Assembly: GCF_013623835.1 (NCBI RefSeq)
Contig: NZ_JABKDE010000004.1
Coordinates: 124,001 to 188,000 of the forward strand
Length of the DNA stretch: 64,000 bases
Origin: Brevibacterium oceani
GTDB taxonomy: Bacteria; Actinomycetota; Actinomycetes; Actinomycetales; Brevibacteriaceae
Direction: 5' to 3'
Both the position numbers and the translations under genes were made by a program. The notes under the pieces were generated by a model. That model was not told the DNA's origin. It ran no database searches and saw nothing but the letters and a program-made list of their open reading frames with translations. Shown piece after piece: positions 15,091 to 57,919 of this stretch (positions are counted from its first letter, which is position 1; the number at the start of each line of letters is the position of its first letter).

Positions 15091-15154
15091 GAACTACGTG
15101 ACGGCGGCCCAGCAACCTCGCGCAAGGTTGCTGGGCCGCCGTCGGGTAGTAATT
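15091..15154 (-). repeat. Stop-codon-anchored palindromic repeat, copy A (3' end of putA)
   Basis: Read on the minus strand it begins AATTACTACC at the last base of the putA TGA. It continues with a perfect 19-bp stem, GACGGCGGCCCAGCAACCT paired with its complement (15125-15143 with 15100-15118) around a 6-base loop. It ends in a degenerate mirror of the first ten bases. The same element recurs at 50954, 56235 and 57441. The stem could terminate transcription, although no T-run follows. Confidence 0.9.
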
Positions 15155-49668: not shown

Positions 49669-50955
49669 GTGGTCATCTACCGTGCCCGCGTCTTCGATAC
49701 GCCGGACAACCCCTTCGACGGAGGGCGGCTGCGCGCCGACTCCGACACAGCCCTCGTCGTCGAGGACGGGCTCATCATCGCCCGCACCGACTTCGCCTCC
49801 GCCCGCGCATCGCACCCCGACGCCGAGGTGGTTGACCTGCGGGCCGGCGTGCTCATCCCCGGCCTCGTCGACACCCACGTCCACTTTCCGCAGGTGCGCG
49901 CCATCGGCTACCTCGGCAAACCGCTGCTCGAATGGCTCGACGACTGTGCCCTGCCCGAAGAGGCGAAGCTTCGCGACGAGGCCTACGCCGGGGCGGTGGC
50001 CGGGGAATTCCTCACCGGCCTGACCTCGGCGGGGACCACCTCGGCGATGGTCTTCGGTTCGCATTTCGCCAACGCGGTGGACATCCTCTTCGCCAGGGCC
50101 GCCGAGGTGGGGCTGCGGATGACCACGGGCCTCGTCACGAGCGATCGGAACCTGCCCGAACCGCTGCTCACGACCGCCGAGCGGGCGACCGCCGAGAGCC
50201 AGGAGCTCATCGACCGGTGGCACGGGCACGGTCGACTGCGATTCGCCGTCACCCCGCGGTTCTCGTTCTCGGCCTCGCAGGAGCTCATGGCCGCCGGCGG
50301 GGAACTCCTCGAGGCCAACCCGGACGTGTGGGTGACCTCGCATCTGAACGAGAACCGCGACGAGATCGCCGGGGTTGCGGAGATGTTTCCCGAGGCGATC
50401 GACTACCTCGACACCTACGACCGGGCGGGGCTGCTCGGGCGGCGGACGATCCTCGCGCACAACGTCCACCCGAGCGATCGGGAGCTGGCGCGGATGGCCG
50501 AGGTCGGGGCCGCCTCGGCGCACTGCCCGACCTCGAATTCGGCGCTGGCCAGCGGATTCTTCCCGCTGCGCCGACACCTCGAGAACGGTGTCCGGGTGGC
50601 GTTGGGCTCGGACGTCGGTGCGGGCAACGGATTCTCGCTGCTCAAGGAGGGCGTGCAGGCGTACTTCATGCAGCAGCTGGACCCGGCCGGGGGACTGCCC
50701 CTGTCCGCGGCCCACCTGCTCCACCTCGCGACCGCCGCGGGTGCCGATGCGCTCGGACTTGCCGACGAGGTCGGGGACCTGTCCTTGGGCAAGCGCTTCG
50801 ACGCCGCATACGTCTCTCCCGCCGCGGGGCAGCCACTCGAGGTGGGCATCAGGCACGCCGAGGACGACGAGGCCGCGCTGGCGAAGATCTTCGCCCTCGG
50901 AACCCCCGCCGACATCACACAAGTCTGGATCGACGGCACCCCAGTCAAACCCTAA
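49669..50955 (+). CDS. guaD: Guanine deaminase
   Basis: A 428-residue amidohydrolase that converts guanine to xanthine, feeding the upstream dehydrogenase. Zinc ligands appear in GLVDTHVHFPQVRAIGY (HxH), VTSHLNENRDEI, LAHNVHPSD and LGSDVGAGNGFS. HCPTSNSALASGFFPLR is the guanine-recognition segment typical of GuaD. GTG 49669 has AAGGAG eight bases upstream. Its TAA overlaps the first two bases of a palindromic repeat, which separates it from the hydroxypyruvate isomerase operon. Confidence 0.93.
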   Translation: MVIYRARVFDTPDNPFDGGRLRADSDTALVVEDGLIIARTDFASARASHPDAEVVDLRAGVLIPGLVDTHVHFPQVRAIGYLGKPLLEWLDDCALPEEAKLRDEAYAGAVAGEFLTGLTSAGTTSAMVFGSHFANAVDILFARAAEVGLRMTTGLVTSDRNLPEPLLTTAERATAESQELIDRWHGHGRLRFAVTPRFSFSASQELMAAGGELLEANPDVWVTSHLNENRDEIAGVAEMFPEAIDYLDTYDRAGLLGRRTILAHNVHPSDRELARMAEVGAASAHCPTSNSALASGFFPLRRHLENGVRVALGSDVGAGNGFSLLKEGVQAYFMQQLDPAGGLPLSAAHLLHLATAAGADALGLADEVGDLSLGKRFDAAYVSPAAGQPLEVGIRHAEDDEAALAKIFALGTPADITQVWIDGTPVKP

Positions 50956-51019
50956 TTACTACCCGACGGCGGCCCAGCAACCTCGCGCCAGGTTGCTGGG
51001 CCGCCGTCATGTAGCAATT
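50954..51019 (+). repeat. Stop-codon-anchored palindromic repeat, copy B (3' end of guaD)
   Basis: It begins AATTACTACC at the second base of the guaD TAA. The perfect 19-bp stem, GACGGCGGCCCAGCAACCT and its complement, surrounds a 6-base loop CGCGCC. The far end GTAGCAATT mirrors the near end, so the whole 66-bp unit is palindromic. It is a likely terminator or RNA-stability element between guaD and the next promoter. Confidence 0.92.
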
Positions 51020-54879: not shown

Positions 54880-56235
54880 TTGAGCAATGACGCCAACTTC
54901 GATCTGATCATCCGCGCCGAGGCGGCCCTGCTGCCCGAGGGAATCGAGCCGGCAACGGTCGGCGTCAGGGACGGGAGGATCGCCGAGATCGCCCGCGGTG
55001 ACAACGGCCTGGATCCGGCCGCCTCGGCGGGGGCGGAGGTCGTCGAGGTCGGCGCCGATCAGGTGCTGCTGCCCGGACTCGTCGACTCCCATGTCCACGT
55101 CAACGACCCCGGCCGGGCCGAGTGGGAGGGCTTCGCCAGCGCCACCCGCGCGGCCGCGGCCGGGGGAGTGACGACGATCGTCGACATGCCGCTGAACTCC
55201 CTGCCGCCGACCGTCGACGTCGCCGCGCTCGAGACCAAACGCGAGGTCGCCGCACCGAAGGCATTCGTCGACGTCGGCTTCTGGGGCGGGGCGATCCCCG
55301 GCAACACCGCCGACCTGCGCCCCCTGCACGAGGCCGGTGTCTTTGGGTTCAAGTGCTTCCTCGAGGACTCAGGGGTCGACGAGTTCCCACCCCTGGAACC
55401 GGCCGAGATGCAGGCCGACATGGCCGAGATCGCGTCCTTTGACTCGATGCTCATCGTCCATGCCGAGGATCACGAGGTGATGACCGGGGCGCCGAAGAAC
55501 TCGGGCCCGAAATTCGCCGACTTCCTCGCCACACGCCCCCGTGAGGCCGAGAACGTCGCCATCGCGCGGGTCATCGACGCCGCCCGCGCCACCGGTGCCC
55601 GTGCCCACATCCTGCATCTGTCCTCAGCCGATTCGCTCGAACAGATCGCGGCGGCCAAGGCGGAAGGCGTCAAGCTCACCGTCGAGACCTGCCCGCACTA
55701 TCTCGTCTTCACCGCCGAGGAGATCCCGGACGGGGCGACGACACACAAGTGCTGCCCGCCGATCCGTGAGGAGTCCAACCGCGAGGCACTGTGGCAGGGA
55801 CTCATCGACGGCACCATCGACTGCATCGTCTCCGACCACTCGCCGTCGACGGCCGAACTCAAGCTGCTCGACACCGGGGACTTCGGTGCCGCATGGGGCG
55901 GGATATCATCCCTGCAGCTGGGCCTGTCGCTCGTCTGGACCGAGGCGGCCAAGCGCGGCATCGAACTCGCCGAAGTCGTCCGCTGGATGTCCGCGGCACC
56001 GGCGGCGGTGGCGCGGGTGGAGAACAAGGGCGCGATCGCGATGGGCAACGACGCGGACTTCGCCGTGTTCGCCCCCGATGAGGAGTGGACCGTGCGCGCC
56101 ACGGACCTCTATCACCGCAATCAGATCAGCGCGTACGATGCCCGCACCGTCCGCGGCCGCGTGTCCCGCACCGTGCTGCGCGGCGCCTCAGTGGACTTCG
56201 AGACCCCGACCGGTCGCCTCCTCACCGCCCGCTGA
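54880..56235 (+). CDS. allB: Allantoinase
   Basis: A 451-residue amidohydrolase that opens the hydantoin ring of allantoin to allantoate. Metal ligands are in LLPGLVDSHVHVNDPGR (HxH), FGFKCFLEDSG (the Lys that is carboxylated), LIVHAEDHEV, AHILHLSSADS and CIVSDHSPSTAELK. The ends fit AllB. The start is TTG 54880, clearly marked by GAGGAGG seven bases upstream. Its TGA shares its last base with a palindromic repeat. The next enzymes, for allantoate and ureidoglycolate, are not in the window. Confidence 0.93.
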   Translation: MSNDANFDLIIRAEAALLPEGIEPATVGVRDGRIAEIARGDNGLDPAASAGAEVVEVGADQVLLPGLVDSHVHVNDPGRAEWEGFASATRAAAAGGVTTIVDMPLNSLPPTVDVAALETKREVAAPKAFVDVGFWGGAIPGNTADLRPLHEAGVFGFKCFLEDSGVDEFPPLEPAEMQADMAEIASFDSMLIVHAEDHEVMTGAPKNSGPKFADFLATRPREAENVAIARVIDAARATGARAHILHLSSADSLEQIAAAKAEGVKLTVETCPHYLVFTAEEIPDGATTHKCCPPIREESNREALWQGLIDGTIDCIVSDHSPSTAELKLLDTGDFGAAWGGISSLQLGLSLVWTEAAKRGIELAEVVRWMSAAPAAVARVENKGAIAMGNDADFAVFAPDEEWTVRATDLYHRNQISAYDARTVRGRVSRTVLRGASVDFETPTGRLLTAR

Positions 56236-56300
56236 ATTACTACCTGACGGCGGCCCAGCAACCTTGCGCGGGGTTGCTGGGCCGTCGTCAGGTTGTTTGA
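56235..56300 (+). repeat. Stop-codon-anchored palindromic repeat, copy C (3' end of allB)
   Basis: AATTACTACC starts at the last base of the allB TGA, followed by TGACGGCGGCCCAGCAACC and the complementary arm. The right arm has one change (GTCGTC for GCCGTC) and the outer end has decayed (GGTTGTTT). This is the most diverged of the four copies. Confidence 0.88.
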
Positions 56301-56319
56301 GGAAGAAGTTATCCACAGA

Positions 56320-56352
56320 TTGCTGTTTTCTATTGCCGTTTTATAGTGAGTA
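56320..56352 (+). promoter_or_regulatory. Promoter of the orphan AbiEi-like/endonuclease-fold gene
   Basis: TTGCTG (56320-56325) and TATAGT (56342-56347) are spaced 16 bases. GTG 56353 begins five bases after the -10, with no ribosome-binding site, so the transcript is probably leaderless. The region is AT-rich compared with its surroundings. Confidence 0.6.
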
Positions 56353-57369
56353 GTGCACTTTGGTGTCATGTATCTGTGCATGACGACCGAGAAGCTCTAC
56401 CGGCTGGGTTTTTCCAAGGACGAGGTCCGGCGCGGCGAGAAGTGCTGCCTCTCGCGCATCGCCCGCGGCCGGTACGTCGCGACCGGATCCTGCGAGGACG
56501 CCCGCCATGAAGCCATCTGGGCGGCGCTGAGCGAGCAGGACTTCGAGGAGTTCGCTCACCGCGGGGACATGCGCGACGAGATCGAACCTCTGCGCGTGCT
56601 CATCCGCACTCGCGCCGAACGCATCCACACCGCCTCGGGGCGCTGGCGGGTGACGAAGGGGCGAGAGGTCTTCTCGCACCTCTCGGCCGCCCTCGTCCAC
56701 GGACTGCCGATCGCCTATTCGGCGCAGACTCGAGTCGAGGTGTTCCGTCCCAACGTCAGCCGCAGGTACCGACACCTCTACGTCCGCAACCGGGAGATCC
56801 CCTCGGCGCACCGGAAGATGGTCGGCATCTACGCGGTGACCACGCTCGAGCGCACCCTCATCGACGTCGCCCGCGACTACAGCCCGGACATCGCCGTGCC
56901 GATGCTCGACGAGGCGATCGGCCGCGGCCGGACGAGTCGGCTCCGGCTCGAGGCGGTCCTCGAGGAATGTCCCGAATCCCGCGGCGACGCAGCCGTGCTC
57001 CGTGCGCTGCACCTGACCGATGGGAGGCGAGAAGCGCCATCGGAGTCGATCGCCGCGGTCCGGTTCTTCGAGCACGGGATCGCAGGGTTCGAACCGCAGG
57101 TCGAATTCTTCGGCGACCACGGCGAGGTGATCGCCCGCGTCGACTTCTGCCACCGCGACGCCCGGCTGATCATCGAGATCGACGGGCTCGAGAAGTACAC
57201 GATGAACGGGCGGACTCCTCGTGAGAGCATCGCGGCAGAGAAGGCGCGCGAAGCGGCTCTCGAAGCCCGAGGCTACAAGGTCATCCGCTTGACCTTCGGG
57301 GAGCTCTTCCGCGCCGCACCGTTCGAACGGATCCTCGGTGTGCTCGCCACGCGGCTGCGCACCGAATGA
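56353..57369 (+). CDS. Orphan AbiEi-like HTH plus DUF559/Vsr-type PD-(D/E)XK domain protein
   Basis: A 338-residue protein. The N-terminus (LYRLGFSKDEVRRGEKCCLSRIARGRYV) resembles the AbiEi antitoxin winged helix. The middle is AbiEi-like (LSAALVHGLPI, VTTLERTLIDVARDYSPDIA). The C-terminal 90 residues resemble the DUF559/very-short-patch-repair nuclease fold, with VIARVDFCHRDARLIIEIDG (D...E-I-D core), a following Lys, and ARGYKVIRLTFGEL. Actinobacteria carry many such proteins without a partner toxin, and their role is unknown. No AbiEii-like gene is adjacent. The gene lies between two inverted copies of the palindromic repeat. GTG 56353 is preferred; ATG 56368 or 56380 is possible. Confidence 0.75.
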   Translation: MHFGVMYLCMTTEKLYRLGFSKDEVRRGEKCCLSRIARGRYVATGSCEDARHEAIWAALSEQDFEEFAHRGDMRDEIEPLRVLIRTRAERIHTASGRWRVTKGREVFSHLSAALVHGLPIAYSAQTRVEVFRPNVSRRYRHLYVRNREIPSAHRKMVGIYAVTTLERTLIDVARDYSPDIAVPMLDEAIGRGRTSRLRLEAVLEECPESRGDAAVLRALHLTDGRREAPSESIAAVRFFEHGIAGFEPQVEFFGDHGEVIARVDFCHRDARLIIEIDGLEKYTMNGRTPRESIAAEKAREAALEARGYKVIRLTFGELFRAAPFERILGVLATRLRTE

Positions 57370-57377
57370 ACGCCCCC

Positions 57378-57441
57378 AAAGAACCTGACGGCGGCCCAGC
57401 AACCTCGCGCCAGGTTGCTGGGCCGCCGTCGGGTAGCAATT
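57378..57441 (-). repeat. Stop-codon-anchored palindromic repeat, copy D (3' end of bcp)
   Basis: Read on the minus strand, AATTGCTACCC begins at the second base of the bcp TAA. The perfect 19-bp stem GACGGCGGCCCAGCAACCT with its complement follows. Its far end lies nine bases beyond the stop of the convergent endonuclease-fold gene, so the element could end transcription from both sides. It is in the opposite orientation to copy C. Confidence 0.92.
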
Positions 57442-57919
57442 AGGGGTGGAGGAGGTGGGTTCTCAGGCGGGCTACGTGGCCCTGGGCATCGACGTTGTAT
57501 TCCGCATGGGTGAGGGTGCCGTCCTCAGCGATGACGAACGTCGAGCGCAGGGTGCCCTGGAAGGTGTGTTCCCCGTCCGTCTTCTGCCCGTAGCTGCCGT
57601 AGGCCCGGGCGACGACCCCGCCGTAGTCGGACAGGAGCGAGAACGTCAGGCCCTCGTCAGCGGCGAAGGCCCGCAGCGACTCCGGATCATCGGGCGAGAC
57701 GCCGAGGACCTCGAAGCCGGCTGCCGCCAGCGCGGAGAGGTTGTCGCGGAAGTCGCAGGCCTCGGTGGTGCAGCCGGGCGTCGACGCCTTGGGGTAGAAG
57801 TAGAGGATGACCTTCCTGCCGGCGAAGTCGGACTTCGAGACGGTCCGTTCCTCTGAGTCGGTGAGCGTGAAGTCCGGTGCGATGTCTCCGGCTCGCAGCT
57901 GAGTCGTCGTCACGGTCAT
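57440..57919 (-). CDS. bcp: Thioredoxin-dependent thiol peroxidase (Bcp/PrxQ)
   Basis: A 159-residue peroxiredoxin that reduces hydroperoxides with electrons from thioredoxin. The active site is FYPKASTPGCTTEACDFRDN, with peroxidatic Cys50 and resolving Cys55, the PrxQ/Bcp spacing. LGVSPDDPESLRAF and RSTFVIAEDGTL complete the family pattern. ATG 57919 has GAAAGGA upstream. It starts 11 bases after the glycerate kinase stop and is almost certainly co-transcribed with it. That is notable because urate oxidase, encoded nearby, produces hydrogen peroxide. Confidence 0.94.
   Translation of the reverse strand: MTVTTTQLRAGDIAPDFTLTDSEERTVSKSDFAGRKVILYFYPKASTPGCTTEACDFRDNLSALAAAGFEVLGVSPDDPESLRAFAADEGLTFSLLSDYGGVVARAYGSYGQKTDGEHTFQGTLRSTFVIAEDGTLTHAEYNVDAQGHVARLRTHLLHP

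Follow-up and report, generated by a model that had tools for sequence, protein, structure and literature searches.

REPtrons and TIRtrons each join a gene for a DNA-cleaving enzyme (RAYT or TnpAREP in REPtrons) to cognate palindromes or terminal inverted repeats (TIRs) that flank it, and the repetitive extragenic palindromes (REPs) occur as many dispersed copies near gene 3' ends in families specific to the enzyme lineage (excerpts of PMC3733652 and PMC8266576). The excerpt of PMC8266576 describes TnpAREP as usually single-copy and gives no evidence for mobility of its own. Two further systems matter here for their protein folds: AbiEi, which binds two 23-bp inverted repeats spaced 3 bp apart in its own promoter and bends the DNA (excerpt of PMC7319586), and I-Bth0305I, which dimerises on a target of nearly 60 bp (excerpt of PMC3943268). 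Here we analyse a 64,000-nucleotide stretch of Brevibacterium oceani (contig NZ_JABKDE010000004.1, positions 124,001 to 188,000; below, the window), in which a single open reading frame (ORF) for an AbiEi-like protein with a predicted Vsr-like endonuclease part lies between two palindromes, C and D. Its neighbours are an allantoinase-like and a peroxiredoxin-like gene that we take to be allB and bcp, names that follow an earlier note on this DNA (the original prediction).

We consider it probable that this gene and the two cognate palindromes bracketing it form a mobile cassette, with solo copies of the palindrome scattered over the genome. The closest known logic is that of REPtrons, and "REPtron-like" seems by analogy a fair description of how the system probably works: here, too, cognate palindromes flank a nuclease gene and are scattered genome-wide. 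Unlike in REPtrons, the enzyme combines AbiEi with a Vsr-like nuclease instead of being an HuH Y1 protein, the repeats are longer (median 73.5 nt) and fewer, and the gene-bearing unit turns over and occupies several sites per genome. The GTAG end tag of REPs is present in the palindromes of the family found here (family A, CTAC...GTAG) but not in families B, C and D described below. A Y1_Tnp (PF01797) search of the B. oceani genome analysed (G000), the only genome covered by the RAYT search, gave 0 matches and no Y1/RAYT, while the control matched in 5 of 14 genomes. The system thus parts from REPtrons on the feature that defines them, the HuH Y1 enzyme.

Judged from a predicted model, homing endonucleases are closest in catalytic fold and AbiEi in DNA-binding fold. 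The nuclease resembles the EDxHD homing endonuclease I-Bth0305I (3r3p) and Vsr (1cw0), but unlike these it comes with flanking and dispersed palindromes and an AbiEi-like DNA-binding part, and without intron or intein. The predicted N-terminal and middle fold is like that of the AbiEi antitoxins S. agalactiae AbiEi (6y8q) and M. tuberculosis Rv2827c (1zel), from which our protein differs by the fused nuclease and by repeats that bracket the gene and also lie scattered elsewhere; no AbiEii nucleotidyltransferase toxin stands beside the gene at the allB-bcp loci examined, where the neighbours are allB and bcp. Short dispersed non-coding copies alongside gene-bearing ones recall miniature inverted-repeat transposable elements and other repeats derived from insertion sequences (IS), but the 1.2-kb unit contains no transposase and the copies are palindromes, not TIR-flanked deletion derivatives. 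We found no description of an AbiEi-Vsr-like nuclease combined with cognate palindromes in a literature search whose coverage left out most subscription journals, and no link between DUF559 and palindromes in a search that did not extend to the full texts of DUF559 papers.

Matched palindromes accompany the gene

The palindromes bracketing the gene are 52 to 66 bp long; their 52-nt cores match at 90%, and 68-nt extensions (56235-56302 and 57374-57441) are 90% complementary. Either copy taken alone is almost perfectly palindromic (DNA fold z = -8.6 and -8.7, with 0 of 200 shuffles equally stable). The original prediction of two facing inverted repeats thus holds as to their presence, but its plus and minus labels mean little because each copy is itself palindromic. 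Long palindromes are rare: the window has five, of which four belong to family A, whose half-site (at most 2 mismatches) is matched 8 times there against 0.30 expected. G000 has 27 exact-core copies and none of a reversed-pattern control. Among 22 distinct A-type copies, 8 of 24 base pairs are changed on both sides (20 cells, compared with 5.5 in shuffles and at most 3 for slid structures), so the symmetry of the palindrome is maintained while its sequence drifts. This fits a hairpin or cruciform and equally well a duplex site bound by a symmetric dimer. The palindromes are placed at gene 3' ends and score as terminator-like; Rfam returned only a sub-threshold chance match (21.3 bits against a gathering score of 42).

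Homologues of the gene occur in 213 of 394 sampled Actinomycetes genomes. We compared the two 500-bp flanks of each of 150 distinct homologues with each other (Smith-Waterman, threshold 40) and found matched flanks in 114. They occur around 28 of 29 homologues resident at the allB-bcp site, 30 of the 54 at other sites in the genus and 56 of the 67 from other genera. The positives of the last group come from 32 of its 39 genera and from 18 of its 22 families. By comparison, 1 of 324 control genes from the same stretches and the window was positive (L097 899-1519, score 196), an ORF inside a direct-repeat region that was unrelated on inspection but kept in the count. The original prediction had tied its cassette to related genes being repeat-flanked elsewhere, and in this it was borne out. 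The total leaves out L078, taken as a duplicate of the G046 site (115 of 151 with it). Duplicates (L101, L023, L025, L056, L060), incomplete frames and loci with less than 300 bp of flank were dropped beforehand, among them one of 30 site loci, taken to be L043, which ends with its contig. The loci from other genera are mostly best-scoring matches, which may favour full-length, active copies. Mismatched pairs of upstream and downstream flanks score 40 or more in 32 of 1502 cases, attributed to orthologous loci. P values in this analysis take no account of how closely the loci are related. In a second, named set from an independent scan, 37 of 64 Brevibacterium loci, overlapping the first set, have matched flanks.

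The repeats are self-complementary in 88 of the 114 positives. Counting L078, 43 of 115 pairs match clearly better in inverted orientation, 17 clearly better in direct orientation and 55 about equally in both. The median distance is 87 bp from the end of the upstream copy to the projected start and 8.5 bp from the stop codon to the downstream copy. The cassette of the original prediction is supported, but its ends are mostly lineage-specific palindromes and not classical TIRs. At eight loci from several genera (L111, L117, L122, L127, L136, L142, L143, L144), the inverted flanking repeats have in common an end motif near AATGATCACGTTCA, possibly a common terminal signal. A weak homologue in G000 with a 630-aa frame (L026, G000:C16:342232) lies between its own pair of ACAAGTGGG...CCCACTTGT hairpins.

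Solo palindromes follow the gene lineages, as judged from genome-wide counts that cover family A, family B and the palindromes of homologues L020, L096 and L167. Exact-core family-A palindromes are present in 19 of 57 genus genomes (2 to 51 copies each), namely in 17 of 19 with an A-type gene compared with 2 of 38 others (G014 and G017); in G041 and G045, whose A-type gene comes without exact-core copies, the palindrome arms are altered. The family-B palindrome is present in all 5 B-type genomes and absent from the 5 other genomes tested. The L020 palindrome occupies 7 positions in G000, of which two flank its gene, and the 88-nt repeat of L167, a homologue from another genus (G119), occupies 24, again with two around the gene; nine congeners of G119 have no copy (seven genomes) or short weak matches (two). 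By crude ORF calls, 15 solo family-A copies lie between tandem (7), convergent (4) or divergent (1) genes or inside predicted frames (3).

The two solo sites of the window are themselves occupied in another genome: at the G053 sites orthologous to window positions 15106 and 50971 (L245-L248), the palindrome loop holds an inserted element of 1.55 kb, nearly identical at both sites, whose two overlapping frames are presumably IS3-type OrfA and OrfB. The sequences suggest an IS that targets these palindromes, for which ISPpu9 and its targeting of REPs offer a parallel (excerpt of PMC8450116).

Turnover and probable loss and gain at orthologous sites

The gene is not fixed at its site; fixation of gene and repeats in all relatives would have spoken against the predicted cassette. 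allB is present in 42 of 57 genus genomes, 30 of which carry the gene next to it (one locus, L036, without bcp; another, L043, with the contig ending on the allB side). Among the 12 remaining genomes, the stretches of G051 and G033 are cut by contig ends and G001 has no bcp; the other nine have gene-free allB-bcp junctions, seven with one hairpin (a family-A copy in G014) and two with two unlike hairpins. 

Four gene types reside at this site, each with its own similar palindrome pair: A (CTACCTGACGGCGGCCCAGCAACC...), B (CCTCCCCGACGTCACTAA...), C (GAGCAACCTTTCGGGCGC...) and D (TGATGTGAAGGGACAA...). In the gene tree, these types have 12 homologues from other sites nested among them (support 1.0 for the group of 12 and 0.997 for a clade that joins this group to A, B and D and excludes C). 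In a host tree of three neighbour genes, the types are interleaved, as for G016 (A), which groups with G017 (C) at support 0.971; some nodes of this tree are weak (0.0-0.5), and its three markers flank the site. A single transposon-like insertion at allB-bcp was considered and rejected, since the two trees show several cassette types at one site.

Alignments of host pairs with different types (A/C, A/B, C/B) mostly have 126-149 identities per 150 bp in the flanks, fall to about 50% across palindrome, gene and palindrome, and then recover. Because the gene and both repeats turn over together, the simpler alternative of the original prediction, that the allB and bcp 3' ends each carry an element by chance, is excluded. 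Loci L046 and L050 are nearly identical in allB and the cassette and about 82-93% identical from around the start of bcp, which marks a recent exchange that ended on one side just past the downstream palindrome and on the other beyond the stretch compared.

At two sites, an allele without the gene has a single palindrome. At the allB-bcp site, the flanks of G028 (with gene) aligned to G014 (without) overlap by 69 bp in G014, and this overlap is one palindrome. Since G014 groups with G028 among gene-bearing species (host-tree support 0.913), gene loss leaving one palindrome is the simplest reading. A second site has palindrome, gene and palindrome in G003 and a single palindrome in G000, with aligned flanks overlapping by 77 bp; neither gene nor palindrome is found there in G028, G053, G018, G043, G025, G038 and G048, and G040 has a different homologue in opposite orientation. 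One solo copy of the L096-family palindrome in G000 (C15:188071-188138) has no counterpart at the matching place in the sister species G003 (flanks 94% and 93% identical) or in G053, G048, G043 and G018, so that it was probably gained in the G000 lineage. In G003 (L094, around G003:C1:969301-970260), a homologue has an internal TGA with both long palindromes still present, and the same place in G040 holds a homologue with different palindromes.

The protein, its upstream region and its neighbours

The gene probably starts at ATG 56368 and not at GTG 56353, since this Met is invariant in the homologue alignment A1. The original prediction of one AbiEi-like/PD-(D/E)XK gene is upheld in ORF and predicted fold, but the length is probably 333 and not 338 aa. 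Pfam detects DUF559 (PF04480) at the C-terminus (E 1.3e-5; 25.5 bits against a curated cut-off of 20.6), as it does in 18 of 20 homologues at E <= 0.1, and PADLOC finds AbiEi in 20 of 20 aligned homologues. Its match covers the middle, non-nuclease part only, and a defence annotation was rejected as the whole answer on this ground. In the predicted structure (mean pLDDT, the predicted local distance difference test, 84), the best structural matches include AbiEi 6y8q, Rv2827c 1zel, the I-Bth0305I catalytic domain 3r3p (TMt 0.75) and Vsr 1cw0, among which E is below 0.001 for 6y8q and 1zel only. The predicted fold is therefore AbiEi plus a Vsr/I-Bth0305I-like (EDxHD/PD-(D/E)XK) endonuclease. 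Residues E231, D264, E275 and K281 (numbered as in the 338-aa frame) do not vary among 20 homologues. Alignment A1 further contains a C-C-x14-C-x4-H pattern in the N-terminal part, with residues 31, 32 and 47 invariant and 52 conserved at 90% or more, possibly a metal site. The ratio of non-synonymous to synonymous substitution rates (dN/dS) is low (median 0.088, range 0.04-0.13, in 105 pairs of 15 orthologues with median dS 0.71), so the protein is kept functional under purifying selection.

Between palindrome C and the gene lies TTATCCACA, which we take to be identical to the DnaA-box consensus. In 27 of 29 site orthologues it lies 41-42 bp ahead of the projected start despite their differing palindromes, and it is kept across three cassette types. 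A copy within 250 bp occurs for 21 of 54 homologues at other sites of the genus and for 7 of 67 from other genera, compared with 6 of 360 control genes. Expression linked to replication through this putative DnaA box is possible. For the leaderless promoter of the original prediction, a scan for the sigma-70 consensus upstream of the gene gave no site, and a TATAGT at 56342-56347, read by eye, is a candidate -10 element. Beyond the cassette follow what we presume to be bcp, on the minus strand, and then a glycerate-kinase-like gene.

Table 1. Features of the cassette and related elements in the window
Feature	Position	Strand	Remark
allB (allantoinase-like)	54880..56235	+	left neighbour, site marker
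Palindrome C, upstream copy	56239..56296	.	directly after allB stop codon; 52-nt core 56242-56293; position kept in orthologues
TTATCCACA box	56309..56317	+	between palindrome C and gene; sole occurrence in window
TATAGT, candidate -10 element	56342..56347	+	found by eye
Gene with AbiEi-like N-terminal/middle part and DUF559/Vsr-like nuclease C-terminal part	56368..57369	+	333 aa from ATG 56368
Palindrome D, downstream copy	57383..57434	.	between gene stop and bcp 3' end
bcp (peroxiredoxin-like)	57440..57919	-	right neighbour, site marker
Solo family-A palindrome	15093..15150	.	without gene
Solo family-A palindrome	50954..51019	.	without gene

Competing explanations and a possible mechanism

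Several other explanations share part of this evidence. Ordinary terminator hairpins that are alike through convergence or gene conversion would suit the extragenic position and the hairpins of other sequence at 8 of 9 gene-free allB-bcp junctions of relatives, but this account is barely credible: it is already disfavoured by the control genes, among which matched flanks are next to absent, and it clashes with the gene-specific palindrome families, the solo gain in one species and the rarity of long palindromes in the window. Very improbable, too, is a stand-alone defence or regulatory gene, an AbiEi-like repressor or nuclease with palindromes as operators and terminators that is exchanged like defence genes. 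AbiEi proteins do bind inverted repeats in their own promoter (excerpt of PMC7319586), the palindromes have terminator-like scores at gene 3' ends, and the gene types alternate among close hosts as defence genes do; yet the downstream copy lies just past the stop codon and not in the promoter, the allB-bcp loci examined have no partner toxin gene beside it, and dispersed solo copies and presence/absence differences are unexpected of operators or terminators.

Two further accounts grant mobility of one kind or another. A homing-type selfish gene, whose nuclease cuts an empty solo palindrome so that the gene is copied in and comes to have a palindrome on either side, would explain why the same site has either one palindrome or the whole unit (G003/G000 and G028/G014) and why non-monophyletic gene types repeatedly occupy one site, and the modelled catalytic fold is nearest to I-Bth0305I and Vsr. 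We hold it to be distinctly improbable, since G000 has some 16 L096-type palindromes that are unoccupied, as are most of its 27 family-A copies, the single palindrome of G014, nested among gene-bearing species, looks like loss, and homing alone leaves the spread of solo palindromes unexplained. Alternatively, the palindromes could be mobile units spread by another enzyme, with the nuclease gene as a passenger that recombination between them picks up or swaps. In favour of this, there are more solo copies than gene-bearing sites, solo copies remain where the gene is missing, recombination between palindromes alone accounts for single-palindrome sites, and family A ends in CTAC/GTAG as GTAG-REPs do. 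This idea is unlikely as well, given that palindrome sequence tracks gene lineage, with lineages in many genera each having their own palindromes, that no Y1_Tnp match was found in G000, and that families B, C and D have no GTAG ends.

The mobile cassette has to contend with a number of points that weigh against it. We infer, and do not observe, that the protein binds or cuts the palindrome and causes its spread, and the assignment of E231, D264, E275 and K281 as active site follows from their invariance. Comparisons of G003 with G000 define no target-site duplication and do not fix the ends of the element to the base. Ordinary homologous recombination through the conserved flanks could account for the turnover of whole cassettes at allB-bcp, as L046 and L050 illustrate. 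Matched flanks are lacking around 24 of the 54 homologues at other sites in the genus and around 11 of the 67 from other genera, and in the independent scan only 4 of 9 named loci outside Brevibacterium have them. No homologue was found in 72,556 plasmid or 50,697 phage records. Finally, solo copies persist without a gene: G014 has 23 family-A copies and no A-type gene, and G000 has about 16 copies of the L096 type and only one palindrome at the place that the gene occupies in G003.

If the cassette is mobile, the repeats or the gene product would move it. The protein may bind the palindrome, with arms of 24 bp and a 4-nt centre, as a dimer: the paired 23-bp repeats of AbiEi and the I-Bth0305I dimer on about 60 bp favour by analogy an AbiEi-Vsr-like dimer on a 24+4+24 palindrome. 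It would nick or cut at palindromes or their insertion sites, and repair would copy either the palindrome alone, giving solo copies, or the whole unit of palindrome, gene and palindrome. Recombination between the two palindromes would delete the gene and leave one palindrome behind, and protein on the upstream palindrome may control expression together with the putative DnaA box.

More broadly, the evidence leaves us evenly divided on whether a class-wide actinobacterial mobile family exists in which each AbiEi-Vsr-like endonuclease would recognise a palindrome of its own, 55-100 bp long, disperse it and evolve along with it. Such a family would be a convergent counterpart of RAYT/REP that works without an HuH enzyme and whose expression is possibly tied to replication through the DnaA box. 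The homologues in the sampled Actinomycetes genomes had no function attached in anything we found; if the proposal is true, they would represent, within a large group of palindromic mobile elements, the form that carries the gene. Actinobacteria would then have a REP-like system built on a different enzyme, which would explain strain-specific extragenic palindromes and provide many natural enzyme-palindrome pairs for studying how a nuclease and its DNA target change together.

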